From Asaia bogorensis (lineage in GTDB: Bacteria; Pseudomonadota; Alphaproteobacteria; Acetobacterales; Acetobacteraceae): DNA of 64,000 nucleotides. Position 1 is the stretch's first letter, and each line of letters begins with the position of its first letter. The stretch lies in contig CAMCDA010000001.1 of assembly GCA_945873195.1 (NCBI GenBank), positions 35,646 to 99,645 on the forward strand. Direction: 5' to 3'. The position numbers and the translations under genes were made by a program. Below are positions 28,271 to 61,573 of this stretch, one piece after another. Below the pieces are notes generated by a model. That model saw only the letters and a program-made list of their open reading frames with translations. It searched no databases and had not been told where the DNA came from.

Positions 28271-28345
28271 GGCGGGGCGCTGCCCCGGACCCCACCGAGG
28301 GCCGTCGCCCTAGCTGGGGATCGAGGGGGCAAAGCCCCGCCCTTA
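28271..28345. repeat. GC-rich palindromic repeat (module-shuffled copy)
   Basis: Contains GGGGCGCTGCCCCGGACCCC, GAGGGCCGTCGCCCT and GGGGGCAAAGCCCC, three short self-complementary modules that also occur, in different order, in the 34.1-34.3 kb element. It lies just after the old yellow enzyme stop and convergent to the nitroreductase remnant. Confidence 0.7.
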
Positions 28346-29045
28346 CGTCCCCGAACCGTTGCCCCAGGCATTGCCCCATCGGTCTGAGAAAGCGACCTCG
28401 GCCACCGGCCGGCGGGTGACTGGGCCGTGGCGGTGGATCGGGTAGCCCATGGGCATCAGGGCGAAGGTGTCGATGTCCTCGGGCAGGCCCAGGGTTTCCT
28501 TCAGCTCGTCTTCGTAGAGGGAGGCGATGGTGGTCAGGACCGTGCCCAGGCCCAAGCCGCGGCAGGCGAGGATGATGTTCTGCACGGCGGGGTAGATGCT
28601 CGAGCCGCGGATGCGTTCCTGGTAGGCTTGGTGGATATCCCAGCGGGCGGCGACGGGGGCGGGCAGGGCCTCACGCGGGGGCATGTCGCGGCGTTTCAGG
28701 CAGGGCACCAGGATGCACGGCGCGTCGCCCATGTGTTCCCAGAGATAGGCGCTGGAGCCGAGGAAGGGATTTGTACTGCGCCTCGGTCAGATGGGCGGGG
28801 CGGGGGCGGGCGGCGTAGATGGCGCTGACTTCCTCGGCCGCCTTGCGGTAGATCGCGCCCAGGCGCTGGCGGGCTGCGGGATCTCGGACGACGATGAAGG
28901 TCCAGTGCTGGGAGTTCCCGCCCGAGGGCGCGCGGATCGCGGCGTCCAGCACCTGCGTGATCAGCGCGTCCGGCACCGGCGTGTCGTGGTAGCGGCGCAG
29001 GGAGCGCGCGGTGTGGATTGCCTCGAACAGCCCGATGTCGGTCAT
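28343..29045 (-). pseudogene. Nitroreductase family gene, frameshifted
   Basis: Two minus-strand ORFs (29045-28671 and 28732-28343) together encode one nitroreductase. The first begins MTDIGLFEAIHTARSLRRY and contains APSGGNSQHWTFIVV; the second contains CILVPCL, IYPAVQNIILACRGLGLGTVLT and a C-terminal MGYP. The frame changes at a run of three C on the coding strand (GGG at 28766-28768). Removing one base restores continuous sequence reading KSFLGSSAYLWEH. Either the gene is inactivated by a one-base insertion or the assembly has a homopolymer error. The FMN-binding and dimerisation parts are otherwise present. Confidence 0.85.
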
Positions 29046-29091: not shown

Positions 29092-30672
29092 TCAGCGCAA
29101 GCCGGGGCGTGGCAGGGTGACCGTGTCGGTCACGGCGCCGGTGGGGACGACGCGGAACAGATGCAGGGTCTGGACGTTGGTGCGGGAGACTTCGCCGATG
29201 GGTTCGGCTGAGCGCCAGAGGATAGGGTCGAAGCCGCGCTGGTCGCGGGAGTCGCGGACGAGGATGCCGGCGCCGTCCAGGGGCGCGGGGGTAGGCAGGG
29301 TGAACAGGCGCCACCGGTCCTCGATCCCGAGGACGGGCACCGCCTGGGGCATGATCCAGGCCAGTTCGGCGGCGAGCGCGTATTGATCCGCGGCCACAAA
29401 GCTCGCGCCGGCGCGCCGGCGGGCGGCCTCGACCTCGGTGGCGACGCGGTCCCAGTCGGCGAGGCGCAGCGCGATCGGATCGACCGGCACGGGCATGGGG
29501 ACGGCCCAGGTGGCGGCGTGCAGGTAGGCGAGGACGGTGATCCCGAGACCCAGGCCGATCGCCGGGGCGCGCAGGCGAGTCCAGAGCGGCTGGGTCAGGC
29601 CGGCCGCGGCGATGGCGGCGGCGGGGTAGATGATGCCAGGCCAGTTGCCCTGCACCCGGGCCCCCAGGGCGTACCACACAAAATAGAGGGTTGCGGGCAC
29701 GGTCAGCGCCGCCAGCAATGTCCAGGCCGGATCGCGGGTGCGCCAGGCCCTTGTGGCGGCCAGGGCGATGCCGGCGAGGCACAGCGCCCAGACCAGCGGC
29801 GTGGCCAGGCCCGCCTGCCCGCCGATCAGCTCCGCCAGGAATTGCAGGGCACGATTGGCTTCCCACGCGCCGACGCGACCGCCCTGGCGCAGGAAGCCAG
29901 CCCAGTCGTGATCGGCGTTCCAGGCGATGACGGGAGCGAAGACCGCCAGGGCGATGGCCAGCCCCAGCCAGGGGCCGGGCTGGCGGAGGTGGCGGCGGGT
30001 GGTCGGGGATGACAGGAGCCATAGCCCGATTCCAAGGCCGAGGAAGGCGGCGGTGTATTTGCTGCTCAGAGCCAGGCCTCCGAACAGACCGGCAAGGGCC
30101 CACCAGGGGGTAGCCGCCGCGAAGAAGCCCCCTCCCCCCTTGAGGGGGAGGGTTGGGGTGGGGGGTAACACCACCCCGGTCCGTGCCGCGACACCCCCCG
30201 CCCCAACCCTCCCCCTCAAGGGGGGAGAAGGCGAGGAGGCACCACCGGTGCGATGGGGCGAGGATATCCGCGCCAGCGCCCAGATCGTCGCGCTCCAGAA
30301 CAGCAGCAACGGGGAGTCCGGGGTCATCACCACCGATCCCACCCCCAGGAACAGTGTGGCGTTCAGTAGCCCCCCCGCGATGAGGCCGGCCCGCCGCCCC
30401 GGCAGCAGGCGTTCGGCGGCGTCGGCGAGCAGCAGGGTGCCCAGCGCGGCGGCCAAGGGACCCAGCAGGCGGACTCCCAGCGGCGTTTCCCCCGCCAGCG
30501 CGGTGCCGACCCAGATCCACAACGCCACCATCGGCGGATGATCCAGGTATCCGGGGGCGAGCGCGCGGGACCAGACCCAGTAATAGGCCTCATCCGGCGC
30601 GAGCGGCAGGATCGCGGCCATGACCAGCCGCAGCACGGTCAGCGCCGCCAGCGCGGCACCTGCCCAGATCAC
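29092..30672 (-). CDS. GT39-type membrane glycosyltransferase with in-frame repeat insertion
   Basis: A 526-residue polytopic protein of the ArnT/PMT glycosyltransferase type. The first loop has LAPDEAYYWVWSRALAPGYLDHPPM, with the acidic residues and DHPP motif of lipid-linked-sugar transferases. About ten hydrophobic segments follow, with a periplasmic C-terminal part. A stretch near residues 148-183 (PLRGRVGAGG, then TPTLPLKGGGG) is encoded by a palindromic repeat that keeps the frame open. Such enzymes usually transfer a sugar from polyprenyl phosphate to an envelope acceptor. The neighbouring GT2-GtrA gene upstream could make that donor. Confidence 0.82.
   Translation of the reverse strand: MIWAGAALAALTVLRLVMAAILPLAPDEAYYWVWSRALAPGYLDHPPMVALWIWVGTALAGETPLGVRLLGPLAAALGTLLLADAAERLLPGRRAGLIAGGLLNATLFLGVGSVVMTPDSPLLLFWSATIWALARISSPHRTGGASSPSPPLRGRVGAGGVAARTGVVLPPTPTLPLKGGGGFFAAATPWWALAGLFGGLALSSKYTAAFLGLGIGLWLLSSPTTRRHLRQPGPWLGLAIALAVFAPVIAWNADHDWAGFLRQGGRVGAWEANRALQFLAELIGGQAGLATPLVWALCLAGIALAATRAWRTRDPAWTLLAALTVPATLYFVWYALGARVQGNWPGIIYPAAAIAAAGLTQPLWTRLRAPAIGLGLGITVLAYLHAATWAVPMPVPVDPIALRLADWDRVATEVEAARRRAGASFVAADQYALAAELAWIMPQAVPVLGIEDRWRLFTLPTPAPLDGAGILVRDSRDQRGFDPILWRSAEPIGEVSRTNVQTLHLFRVVPTGAVTDTVTLPRPGLR
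30132..30227. repeat. Palindromic repeat inside the GT39 coding sequence
   Basis: Two 35-base arms (30132-30166 and 30193-30227) are reverse complements with one mismatch, separated by 26 bases. Each arm contains CCCCTTGAGGGGGAGGG, itself partly self-complementary. The element sits in frame within the GT39 gene and encodes proline/glycine-rich peptide in both arms. Confidence 0.9.
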
Positions 30673-30750: not shown

Positions 30751-31875
30751 TCATCGGGCGCGCCAGACCAGCGTCGCCGAGACCGCGTAGTTCCAGACGA
30801 CGCCGAGTACCGCGCCGACCGCGCCGGCCGCGGTCCAGGCGGTATTCTGTTCATACAACACGTTGGCGATGCCGATATTGGCGATGGCGCCCACGCCGCA
30901 GACCAGCATGAACAGGATCAGCCCGCGCCACAGGCGGGGGCCGCGCAGGCGTTGCTCCCGATACGTGATCACGTTGTTGAGCTGGAAGTTGAACACCATG
31001 GCGACCAGGGTGGCGATGCTCTGCTCGATCGTGAAATCCAGGTGCGTGACCTGGCGCAGCAAAGCCAGCACCGACAGATGCACCAGGACGCCCAGCGCGC
31101 CCACCGTTGCGAACGACACGAAGCGGAGCGGCAGCAGCCCGCCGAACACCTTGTCGATCAGCAGCCCGCCGAATTGCATCATCACCAGCGCGTCGAGCTT
31201 GCTCTCCCCGGCCACGCGTTCCCGGAACCGCGCCGGCACTTCCTTGACCCGCAGCGGGGCCGGCGCGCTGAGCACCAGGTCGAGCAGGATCTTGAACCCC
31301 TGCCCGGTCAGGCCGCGGGCCAGATCCTCGAACAGCACGCGGGGCAGCATGAAGAAGCCGCTCATGGGATCGCCCAGCCGCACCGGCAGGAACACCTGCG
31401 CGAGCCAGATGCCGCCATCCGAGATCGCATGCCGCCAGCGGTTGGCCAGGCCGGCATTGTCGCCGCCCGCCACGTGCCGGCTGGCGACGATGATGTCGTG
31501 CTGGCCGGTCCGCAGCGCCTCCAGCATCACCGGCAGCCGCGTTTCGTCATGCTGCAGGTCGCCGTCGATCACCGCCACGAATTCGGCCGAGGAGGACATC
31601 GCGCCCTCGATCACCGCCGAGGCCAGGCCGCGGCGGCCGATGCGGCGGATGCAGCGTACGCGCGGGTCATCCTGGGCGATGCGGCGCACCTCGGCCGCGG
31701 TGCCGTCGGGGCTGTCGTCATCGACGTAGATGACTTCCCAAGCGATGCCGTCCAGCGCGGCGTCCAGCTTCTCGATCATCGGGGCGACGTTCGGCCGCTC
31801 ATTGAAGCATGGCACGATCACGCTCAGCACGGGGGTCGTGACGAGCGTCGCGGCGGGTGCAAGGGCGTTTGTCAT
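30751..31875 (-). CDS. Polyprenyl-phosphate glycosyltransferase (GT2) fused to GtrA-like domain
   Basis: A 374-residue protein starting MTNALAPAATL; the ORF track begins 55 residues early. The N-terminal GT2 domain (about 15-235) has LSVIVPCFNERPNV, VDDDSPDGT and VIDGDLQHDE, as in dolichol-phosphate mannose synthases. The C-terminal part (about 250-370) has four hydrophobic segments with FVSFATVGALGVLVHL and FNFQLNNVITYRE, typical of GtrA flippase-like domains. It probably makes, and helps expose, a lipid-linked sugar. It lies upstream of the GT39 gene on the same strand, about 80 bases apart, which suggests the donor and transferase act in one envelope glycosylation pathway. Confidence 0.88.
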   Translation of the reverse strand: MTNALAPAATLVTTPVLSVIVPCFNERPNVAPMIEKLDAALDGIAWEVIYVDDDSPDGTAAEVRRIAQDDPRVRCIRRIGRRGLASAVIEGAMSSSAEFVAVIDGDLQHDETRLPVMLEALRTGQHDIIVASRHVAGGDNAGLANRWRHAISDGGIWLAQVFLPVRLGDPMSGFFMLPRVLFEDLARGLTGQGFKILLDLVLSAPAPLRVKEVPARFRERVAGESKLDALVMMQFGGLLIDKVFGGLLPLRFVSFATVGALGVLVHLSVLALLRQVTHLDFTIEQSIATLVAMVFNFQLNNVITYREQRLRGPRLWRGLILFMLVCGVGAIANIGIANVLYEQNTAWTAAGAVGAVLGVVWNYAVSATLVWRAR

Positions 31876-32079
31876 ATGATCCCGTTGATTTCGCCATGTT
31901 TTAGGCGGAGTCAGGCAATGACAAGACCGACCCCCCGCGTCAAGAGGGGCCGCAACCCACAGCTTATGGTTGAATACCAAAACGTCTAATTTATCGTTTA
32001 TGTTACCGTTTACAGATTCAGGCTGTAGTCCCACTTCCACGGCGACGGGTCGACCGTCACCCCAGTGAGATCAACATTC

Positions 32080-33990: not shown

Positions 33991-34364
33991 GTTGTTCTAT
34001 GCGCGAGGGGCTGCGGAAGCCCCATGGTATTGGAGGGCGCGGTTCTGGCAAGTCCCGGTGTCGTGGAAGGGCGGGGCGCTGCCCCAAACCCTGCCAGGGG
34101 CTTTGCCCCTGGACCCCACCAAAGGCCGGCGGCCTTTGGAAACCATTGGTTGGGGGGATTCCGGGAGGGGCTGAGGTGGTGTTTGAGATATTACCTCAGC
34201 CCCTCCCGGAATCCCCCCAAACTGACCGGTTCCAAGGGCCGTCGCCCTTGGTGGGGGTTCAGGGGGCAAAGCCCCCTGATGGGGTCCGGGGCAGCGCCCC
34301 GATCTTGCATCCCGCGCCCCGCTGCGTCACGCTCCGGACACAAAATCGCGGGAGCTCCAACCCA
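33991..34364. other. Gene-free region carrying a nested palindrome
   Basis: This 374-bp spacer between the Lrp gene and the amidohydrolase is mostly repeat (34073-34300). The frame upstream of the amidohydrolase is open right through it, which is why the ORF track gives a spurious 122-residue extension. No separate gene is visible. Confidence 0.8.
34073..34300. repeat. 228-bp imperfect palindrome built from two inverted repeat copies
   Basis: Outer arms begin GGGGCGCTGCCCC (34073-34085) and end GGGGCAGCGCCCC (34288-34300). Between them each side carries a GGGGCTTTGCCCC-type module and an AAGGCCGGCGGCCTT or AAGGGCCGTCGCCCTT module. At the centre lies a perfect 28-base inverted repeat (34150-34177 and 34193-34220) with a 15-base loop. 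Confidence 0.9.
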
Positions 34365-61317: not shown

Positions 61318-61446
61318 CGTGTTTCTCCCGTCCTGCCGTCCTGGTGCGGCCTTGGGTGGTTCTACAACAGGATGCCGGGGTGGGGGAGGGTGTGGGGGAG
61401 GGCAATCGGGTGAACGGGCTTGATTGGCCGCTGGCCTCTATATCCC

Positions 61447-61520
61447 GTCATCCCGGCCCTGTGCCGGGACCAACACCACCCCAGGTGCCGCGATTGGTCC
61501 CGGCACAAGGCCGGGATGAC
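61447..61520. repeat. Inverted pair of the GTCATCCCGGCC repeat
   Basis: Two 27-base arms (61447-61473 and 61494-61520) are reverse complements with one mismatch and a 20-base spacer. A single arm occurs at about 44750. This is a dispersed intergenic repeat. Confidence 0.85.
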
Positions 61521-61528
61521 GAAAAAAA

Positions 61529-61573
61529 GGAGCCGGCAGCCGATGAAAAAACAGGAGTCGGCAGCCGATGAAA
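61529..61573. repeat. 25-bp direct repeat, two copies
   Basis: GGAGCCGGCAGCCGATGAAA (61529-61548) and GGAGTCGGCAGCCGATGAAA (61554-61573) differ by one base. Confidence 0.8.

Follow-up and report, generated by a model that had tools for sequence, protein, structure and literature searches.

Palindromic repeats that lie within genes have been described in Rickettsia and in some REP families. Triplex motifs, for their part, have been described from Escherichia coli, as intergenic repeats. In work on these E. coli repeats (Holder et al. 2015, PMC4666352), PIT elements are reported to block DNA polymerase in vitro, and palindromic pairs of triplex motifs (TM) are reported to lose parts, with a hairpin left behind. 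Intragenic REPs often reside in genes for replication and repair, such as those for UvrD/REP helicase, recBCD and DnaE2, and the GTAG and CGTC families of REPs commonly form heterodimers, with CGTC families found without a dedicated transposase (Di Nocera et al. 2013, PMC3733652). In yeast genes, template switching has been documented to homogenise the arms of inverted repeats and to invert the spacer that separates them (Abraham and Hazkani-Covo 2021, PMC8604942). Here we describe a case in which intragenic position and triplex motif are combined, in that conserved genes in a free-living bacterium harbour dimers of the triplex motif, and in which a sister species allows a view of how such an insertion changes afterwards.

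The window, that is, the whole stretch of DNA analysed, comprises 64,000 nucleotides from Asaia bogorensis (contig CAMCDA010000001.1, positions 35,646 to 99,645). It contains an uninterrupted open reading frame of 526 amino acids with a GTG start on the minus strand (29092-30672), the product of which matches Pfam PMT_2 (PF13231) with E=2e-29 and 103 bits against a cut-off of 26. A sequence search of this protein against PDB gave no match; a fold search assigned it a GT-C fold, with ArnT (5f15) as the best structure match (TM-score 0.60, E=3e-8), and its AlphaFold2 model has a pLDDT of 85. We name the enzyme PMT_2/ArnT-like after its Pfam and fold matches, and do not use the GT39 label of the preliminary description. 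Adjoining this gene, also on the minus strand, is a polyprenyl-phosphate sugar synthase-like gene of the GT2 and GtrA/DPMS type (30751-32040), which, judged from gene context, is likely to be the donor synthase for the GT-C enzyme. On the other side of the glycosyltransferase gene, a nitroreductase-family frame of 124 amino acids (28671-29045, minus strand) has a Pfam match that ends at position 68 of 167; since this match is short and another frame on the same strand (28343-28732) continues nearby in a different reading frame, the nitroreductase gene may be frameshifted or misassembled.

Within the glycosyltransferase frame lies a palindrome of about 104 bases (30127-30232), with 40-nucleotide arms that are 93% complementary and a 26-nucleotide core. 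The left arm (30127-30166, plus strand) is a triplex-motif unit of the kind we call type A, with a stem formed by 30130-30138 and 30144-30152, a CTTGA loop, a TTG spacer and a purine tail at 30156-30164; as read from the sequence, it has 9/9 Watson-Crick pairs and 9/9 triplet-compatible positions. The core (30167-30192), to which no strand is assigned, separates it from the right arm (30193-30232, minus strand), which carries the motif on the opposite strand in a slightly decayed form, with a TTCTCCCCC stem and a GGGCGGGGG tail. The preliminary description had reported arms of 35 bases encoding the peptides PLRGRVGAGG and TPTLPLKGGG in an uninterrupted frame of 526 codons; frame and peptides are as it stated, and its arms correctly mark the centre of an element that is slightly longer. 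At up to three mismatches, a 34-nucleotide arm was found in none of 100 shuffles of the window.

We compared the host protein with about 107 homologues from congeners and other Acetobacteraceae. These have three to five residues at the insertion site (eight to 15 in a few), against 48 in the aligned window protein, and read across the site like LWALARLHA-TGDGRWWLA. Relative to them, the complete in-frame insertion spans 48 codons (30121-30264, minus strand), corresponding to residues 137-184. It had been proposed that the element was absorbed in frame into a loop linking membrane helices and that an alignment with relatives would reveal this. The relatives indeed lack about 45 residues exactly here and keep both flanks, and the alignment together with the AlphaFold2 model supports the proposed location. 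In that model, residues 141-148 and 159-181 fall below pLDDT 50 between the helices 119-137 and 183-204, and the inserted stretch of about 45 residues is predicted to be a disordered loop linking the two. Topology counted from the conserved D27-E28 loop would place it opposite the catalytic face.

Among the aligned relatives, the insertion of about 48 residues occurs only in this genome (G000) and in the sister species Acetobacteraceae bacterium UBA6159 (G014), whose host protein is 88% identical. Since both species have it and the next relatives do not, the insertion is older than their split. The residues directly outside the arms are poorly conserved between the two species. Flanking codons differ by 42 synonymous and 13 nonsynonymous changes on the N-terminal side and by 74 and 30 on the C-terminal side, and this large excess of synonymous changes indicates that the gene, with its insert, is still under purifying selection. 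We conclude from these alignments that the insertion in the glycosyltransferase gene is real, old and in frame.

To which kind of repeat the palindrome belongs follows from the build of its arms, each of which consists of a pyrimidine stem, a loop, a purine stem and a purine tail that mirrors the purine stem. There are three arm types in this genome (CCCTCCCCC/GGGGGAGGG with tail GGGGTGGGGGG, CCCTCTCCC/GGGAGAGGG with GGGGTGAGGGG, and CCCCCTCCC/GGGAGGGGG with GGGGGGAGGGG), and in all three the tail repeats the purine stem in mirror order, which is what purine-motif triplets of the kinds G·G, A·A and T·A need. Stems pair at 9/9 positions in 99 of 117 arms and at 8/9 in the other 18, the arm finder itself having required at least 8/9. 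Among 50 distinct perfect-stem arms with eight stem types, drawn from across Pseudomonadota, stem and tail covary, with G·G, A·A or T·A triplets in 72/72 instances at the type level, which 0 of 20,000 permutations reach, in a test that was devised after the first three arm types were seen and on arms that are related by descent. The type B arms of this genome follow the published TMECO pattern CCCTCNCCCN3-6GGGNGAGGGN3GGGNGAGGG (PMC4666352) to the letter, and the type A arms of the window differ from that pattern at one third-strand position, a change for which a stem base compensates. When genomes were scanned with a degenerate pattern, triplex-type arms appeared in 43 of 399 Pseudomonadota genomes, and a stricter pattern for a 20-nucleotide arm in 21 of 385 alphaproteobacterial genomes. 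On its sequence architecture we identify the window element as two copies, placed head to head, of the intrastrand-triplex repeat BoxC/PIT/TM, which is G/C-rich and occurs here in the local subtype type A, an identity that the preliminary description had missed. We infer that triplexes form in vivo; a G-quadruplex is an equally feasible fold for the G-rich strand, with the mirror covariation of stem and tail favouring triplex-type pairing.

Of the marks of GTAG/CGTC REPs, namely a terminal tag of either kind, AT at stem positions 1-2 and a CCA tail, none is conserved in the arm sequences listed. Rfam gave sub-threshold scores for miRNA-like hairpins and for one antisense family, which we took as meaningless. 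A fourth arm type, CTTGAGGGCTTGGGCCGCGAAGCGGACCAAGGTTGGGGGG, has an extra hairpin within the arm; it is present at sites #29, #52 and #71 (L029, L162 and L179), and replaces an ordinary arm at orthologous sites in either this genome or that of the sister species. The window holds two further palindromic structures. At 61420-61547, CCCGTCATCCCGGCCCTGTGCCGGGACCAA and its inverse form a second palindrome that resembles a CGTC-tagged REP dimer, with a CGTCAT start and a CCA tail; CGTC repeats have been reported missing from Acetobacteraceae (PMC3733652). A perfect 28-nucleotide inverted repeat with a 15-nucleotide spacer (34150-34220) lies within a looser 36-nucleotide inverted repeat (34082-34290) and, by eye, is unrelated to the triplex dimer.

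The glycosyltransferase is one of several hosts. In-frame dimers with homologous sequence on both sides were found in four further conserved genes, which encode a P-type ATPase, AddA, ImuB and an MBOAT protein, and these insertions are absent from most congeners; counted with the glycosyltransferase, this genome has at least five in-frame gene copies. The genome-wide work consisted of pattern searches and selected stretches, in which only part of the copies were annotated, and the majority of copies appear to be intergenic or upstream of genes. Seven copies within open reading frames (MFS, TrmB-like, ATP-grasp, SBP_bac_5, ABC, GDSL lipase and FolP) were left out of the genic count, since their best Pfam match begins only past the element and the true start may also come after it, and frames that have no Pfam domain were left out as well. 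Congener G032 has a triplex-type dimer of its own in the same ImuB loop as this genome (L300), and in congener G008 the MBOAT loop in question is occupied by a palindromic repeat of an unrelated kind (VVDGRDKPGHD; L308), which suggests recurrent insertion into permissive loops.

The preliminary description took the repeat to be mobile, and an active mobile element, either a MITE or a REP moved by a transposase, could insert anywhere and occasionally land in frame. Copy numbers speak for this explanation: at up to two mismatches, the arm has 101 matches in the whole genome (0 for the reversed pattern); the sister species has 61 matches and the other congeners checked by pattern have 0-6, and related arm types have expanded separately in G032 and G024. 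Copy number has expanded in this species pair. However, Y1 transposase (RAYT, PF01797) had no match in the genome of either species, with controls matched in 5/14. We also mapped the flanks of the elements of this genome on about 1 Mb of the sister genome, in regions chosen around sister elements and biased by that choice to shared sites; both flanks were found for 28 sites, most of which were occupied in both species, about four strongly shortened and none cleanly empty. Furthermore, the length of the element is mostly 104 bp, which is not a multiple of three, and no target duplication was identified. With most comparable sites occupied in both species and no transposase found, we see no clear sign of recent movement, and we regard ongoing insertion by an active element as improbable.

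We consider it more improbable still that the inserted peptide, or the hairpin in the mRNA, has taken on a function, such as translation regulation, an RNase III site or an interaction loop. The insertion is kept in both sister species, and as RNA the palindrome has a very stable fold (-105 kcal/mol, z = -9.2), but the peptide differs between the species, with a core from the opposite strand and little conservation directly outside the arms, and the loop is disordered in the AlphaFold2 model. Moreover, insertions of the same kind are present in unrelated proteins and an unrelated palindrome in the MBOAT loop of a congener, a pattern that permissive loops fit better than function. Taken literally, the earlier suggestion of new peptide segments made by the repeat is correct, but the usefulness of such peptides is unsupported and the element does not stand out by its openness: on average 3.2 of six frames are open, compared with 3.8 for random local windows, and the idea of an element adapted to be open in many frames was rejected. 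Finally, both genomes are fragmented (400 contigs in G000, and NN gaps inside elements in the sister assembly), but an assembly or annotation artefact, in which the element is really intergenic or its frame broken, is very hard to believe given that here a single open frame carries homologous protein sequence before and after the element, that the independent assembly of the sister species has the same insertion and that four other genes show the same arrangement.

Shared sites differ internally between the two species, through exchange of arm type, extra or missing units, core inversion and one near-complete deletion. The ImuB element, for example, measures 105 bp here and is a 21-bp remnant in the sister species, a difference of 84 bp or 28 codons. 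With orientation judged partly by eye, cores are inverted at four sites (the window site, #5, the ATPase and #71) and have the same orientation at about 11. In the glycosyltransferase gene, the cores of the two species are exact reverse complements of each other, matching 30/30 positions with flanking bases, and the nearest other copy among the fetched loci has four mismatches; between the same arm-encoded peptides, the window protein reads VAARTGVVLP and that of the sister species NTTPVRAATP. The core of site #5, itself partly palindromic, matches at 23/26 positions when inverted versus 17/26 in direct orientation, that of the ATPase site at 20/26 versus 16/26, and the inversion at #71 shows a weak score difference. 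In the glycosyltransferase of the sister species, the right arm is otherwise intact but contains an NN gap and nine extra bases, and the arms share exact inverted repeats of 24-27 nucleotides, so core orientation and frame of the sister gene could be an assembly error. The arms at #5, the ATPase and #71 have no exact inverted repeat of 12 nucleotides or more, and for this reason a flip by the assembler hardly explains these three sites. Gene conversion from another copy is a possible source of the inversions in the ATPase and at #71. Judged from these comparisons, the central part of such repeats seems to invert from one sister species to the other.

The explanation that we favour, with a probability of roughly 0.8, is that the window element is an old triplex-motif dimer which lies in frame in the PMT_2/ArnT-like gene, is tolerated there and was later rearranged by template switching. 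The type A subtype has multiplied in this pair of Acetobacteraceae species, and before they split one dimer would have entered the gene at an inter-helix loop, with a net length that preserved the frame. Translation of the dimer presumably yields a disordered linker, rich in Pro and Gly and about 45 residues long, which would be tolerated because the loop lies outside the conserved enzyme and, by its probable topology, opposite the catalytic residues. Ordinary drift would then be only part of how this DNA evolves. Arms that fold as hairpins or triplexes would probably stall replication and lead to template switching between them, which could delete, swap or homogenise arms and invert the core. 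In the gene, core inversion would replace some ten adjacent residues at once and leave arms, length and frame as they were. Judged from its product, template switching between arms is the most likely route of change. The element is best viewed as an old, tolerated repeat under continuing rearrangement rather than as a peptide-making device. More tentatively, triplex dimers might act as self-rearranging cassettes, in which replication-driven core inversion repeatedly swaps about ten residues of a permissive protein loop while length and frame are kept, a proposal that we think doubtful; such an in-frame swap may occur since both core orientations can be open in the same frame.

The recurring peptides PLRGRVGVGG, TPTLPLKGGG and PLPLREG can be traced to the repeat and need not be taken for protein motifs. 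If upheld by long reads, the inversions would let template switching at non-B DNA be tested in bacteria by a natural experiment, and self-rearranging cassettes, if they exist, would diversify protein loops by a mutational route that has not been described for this triplex-repeat family.

Among known systems, the repeat resembles TMECO (BoxC/PIT/TM) of E. coli, which, in the part of PMC4666352 consulted, has a 9-nucleotide C-rich stem, a loop of 3-6 nucleotides and a 9-nucleotide G-rich stem, followed by a 3-nucleotide loop and a 9-nucleotide G-rich third strand, and which forms inverted pairs that undergo partial deletion between strains. Unlike TMECO as given there, the window arms have G·G in place of one A·A triplet, at least five genes contain an in-frame dimer, whereas the E. 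coli copies are reported to be always intergenic, and we find a GCGGCAC-type core and core inversion, of which the same part of that paper makes no mention. The in-frame position is shared with the palindromic repeats and dimers of intragenic REPs of the GTAG/CGTC families, including Rickettsia RPE-4 and RPE-6 (PMC3733652), and the copies in AddA and ImuB fit the list of DNA-repair genes for intragenic REPs in that work; in contrast to these REPs, no GTAG or CGTC tag was recognised in our arms, which have a triplex architecture. Rickettsia palindromic elements (RPE-1 and others), compared by description through PMC3733652 and general knowledge, likewise stand in frame in proteins, but differ in sequence and organism and have many genic copies against the five confirmed here. 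Like the enterobacterial repeats RU-1, RU-2 and RU-3 (Delihas 2007, PMC2759123), ours is a short repeat with open frames fused into annotated genes; the repeat types are unrelated, and the abstract of that paper describes no triplex motif. Lastly, the changes between sister species resemble the template-switch inversion of yeast (PMC8604942), in which arms are kept alike, the spacer is inverted and several residues change at once, but the yeast case concerns short single-copy inverted repeats, and ours a dispersed bacterial family with cores of about 26 nucleotides.
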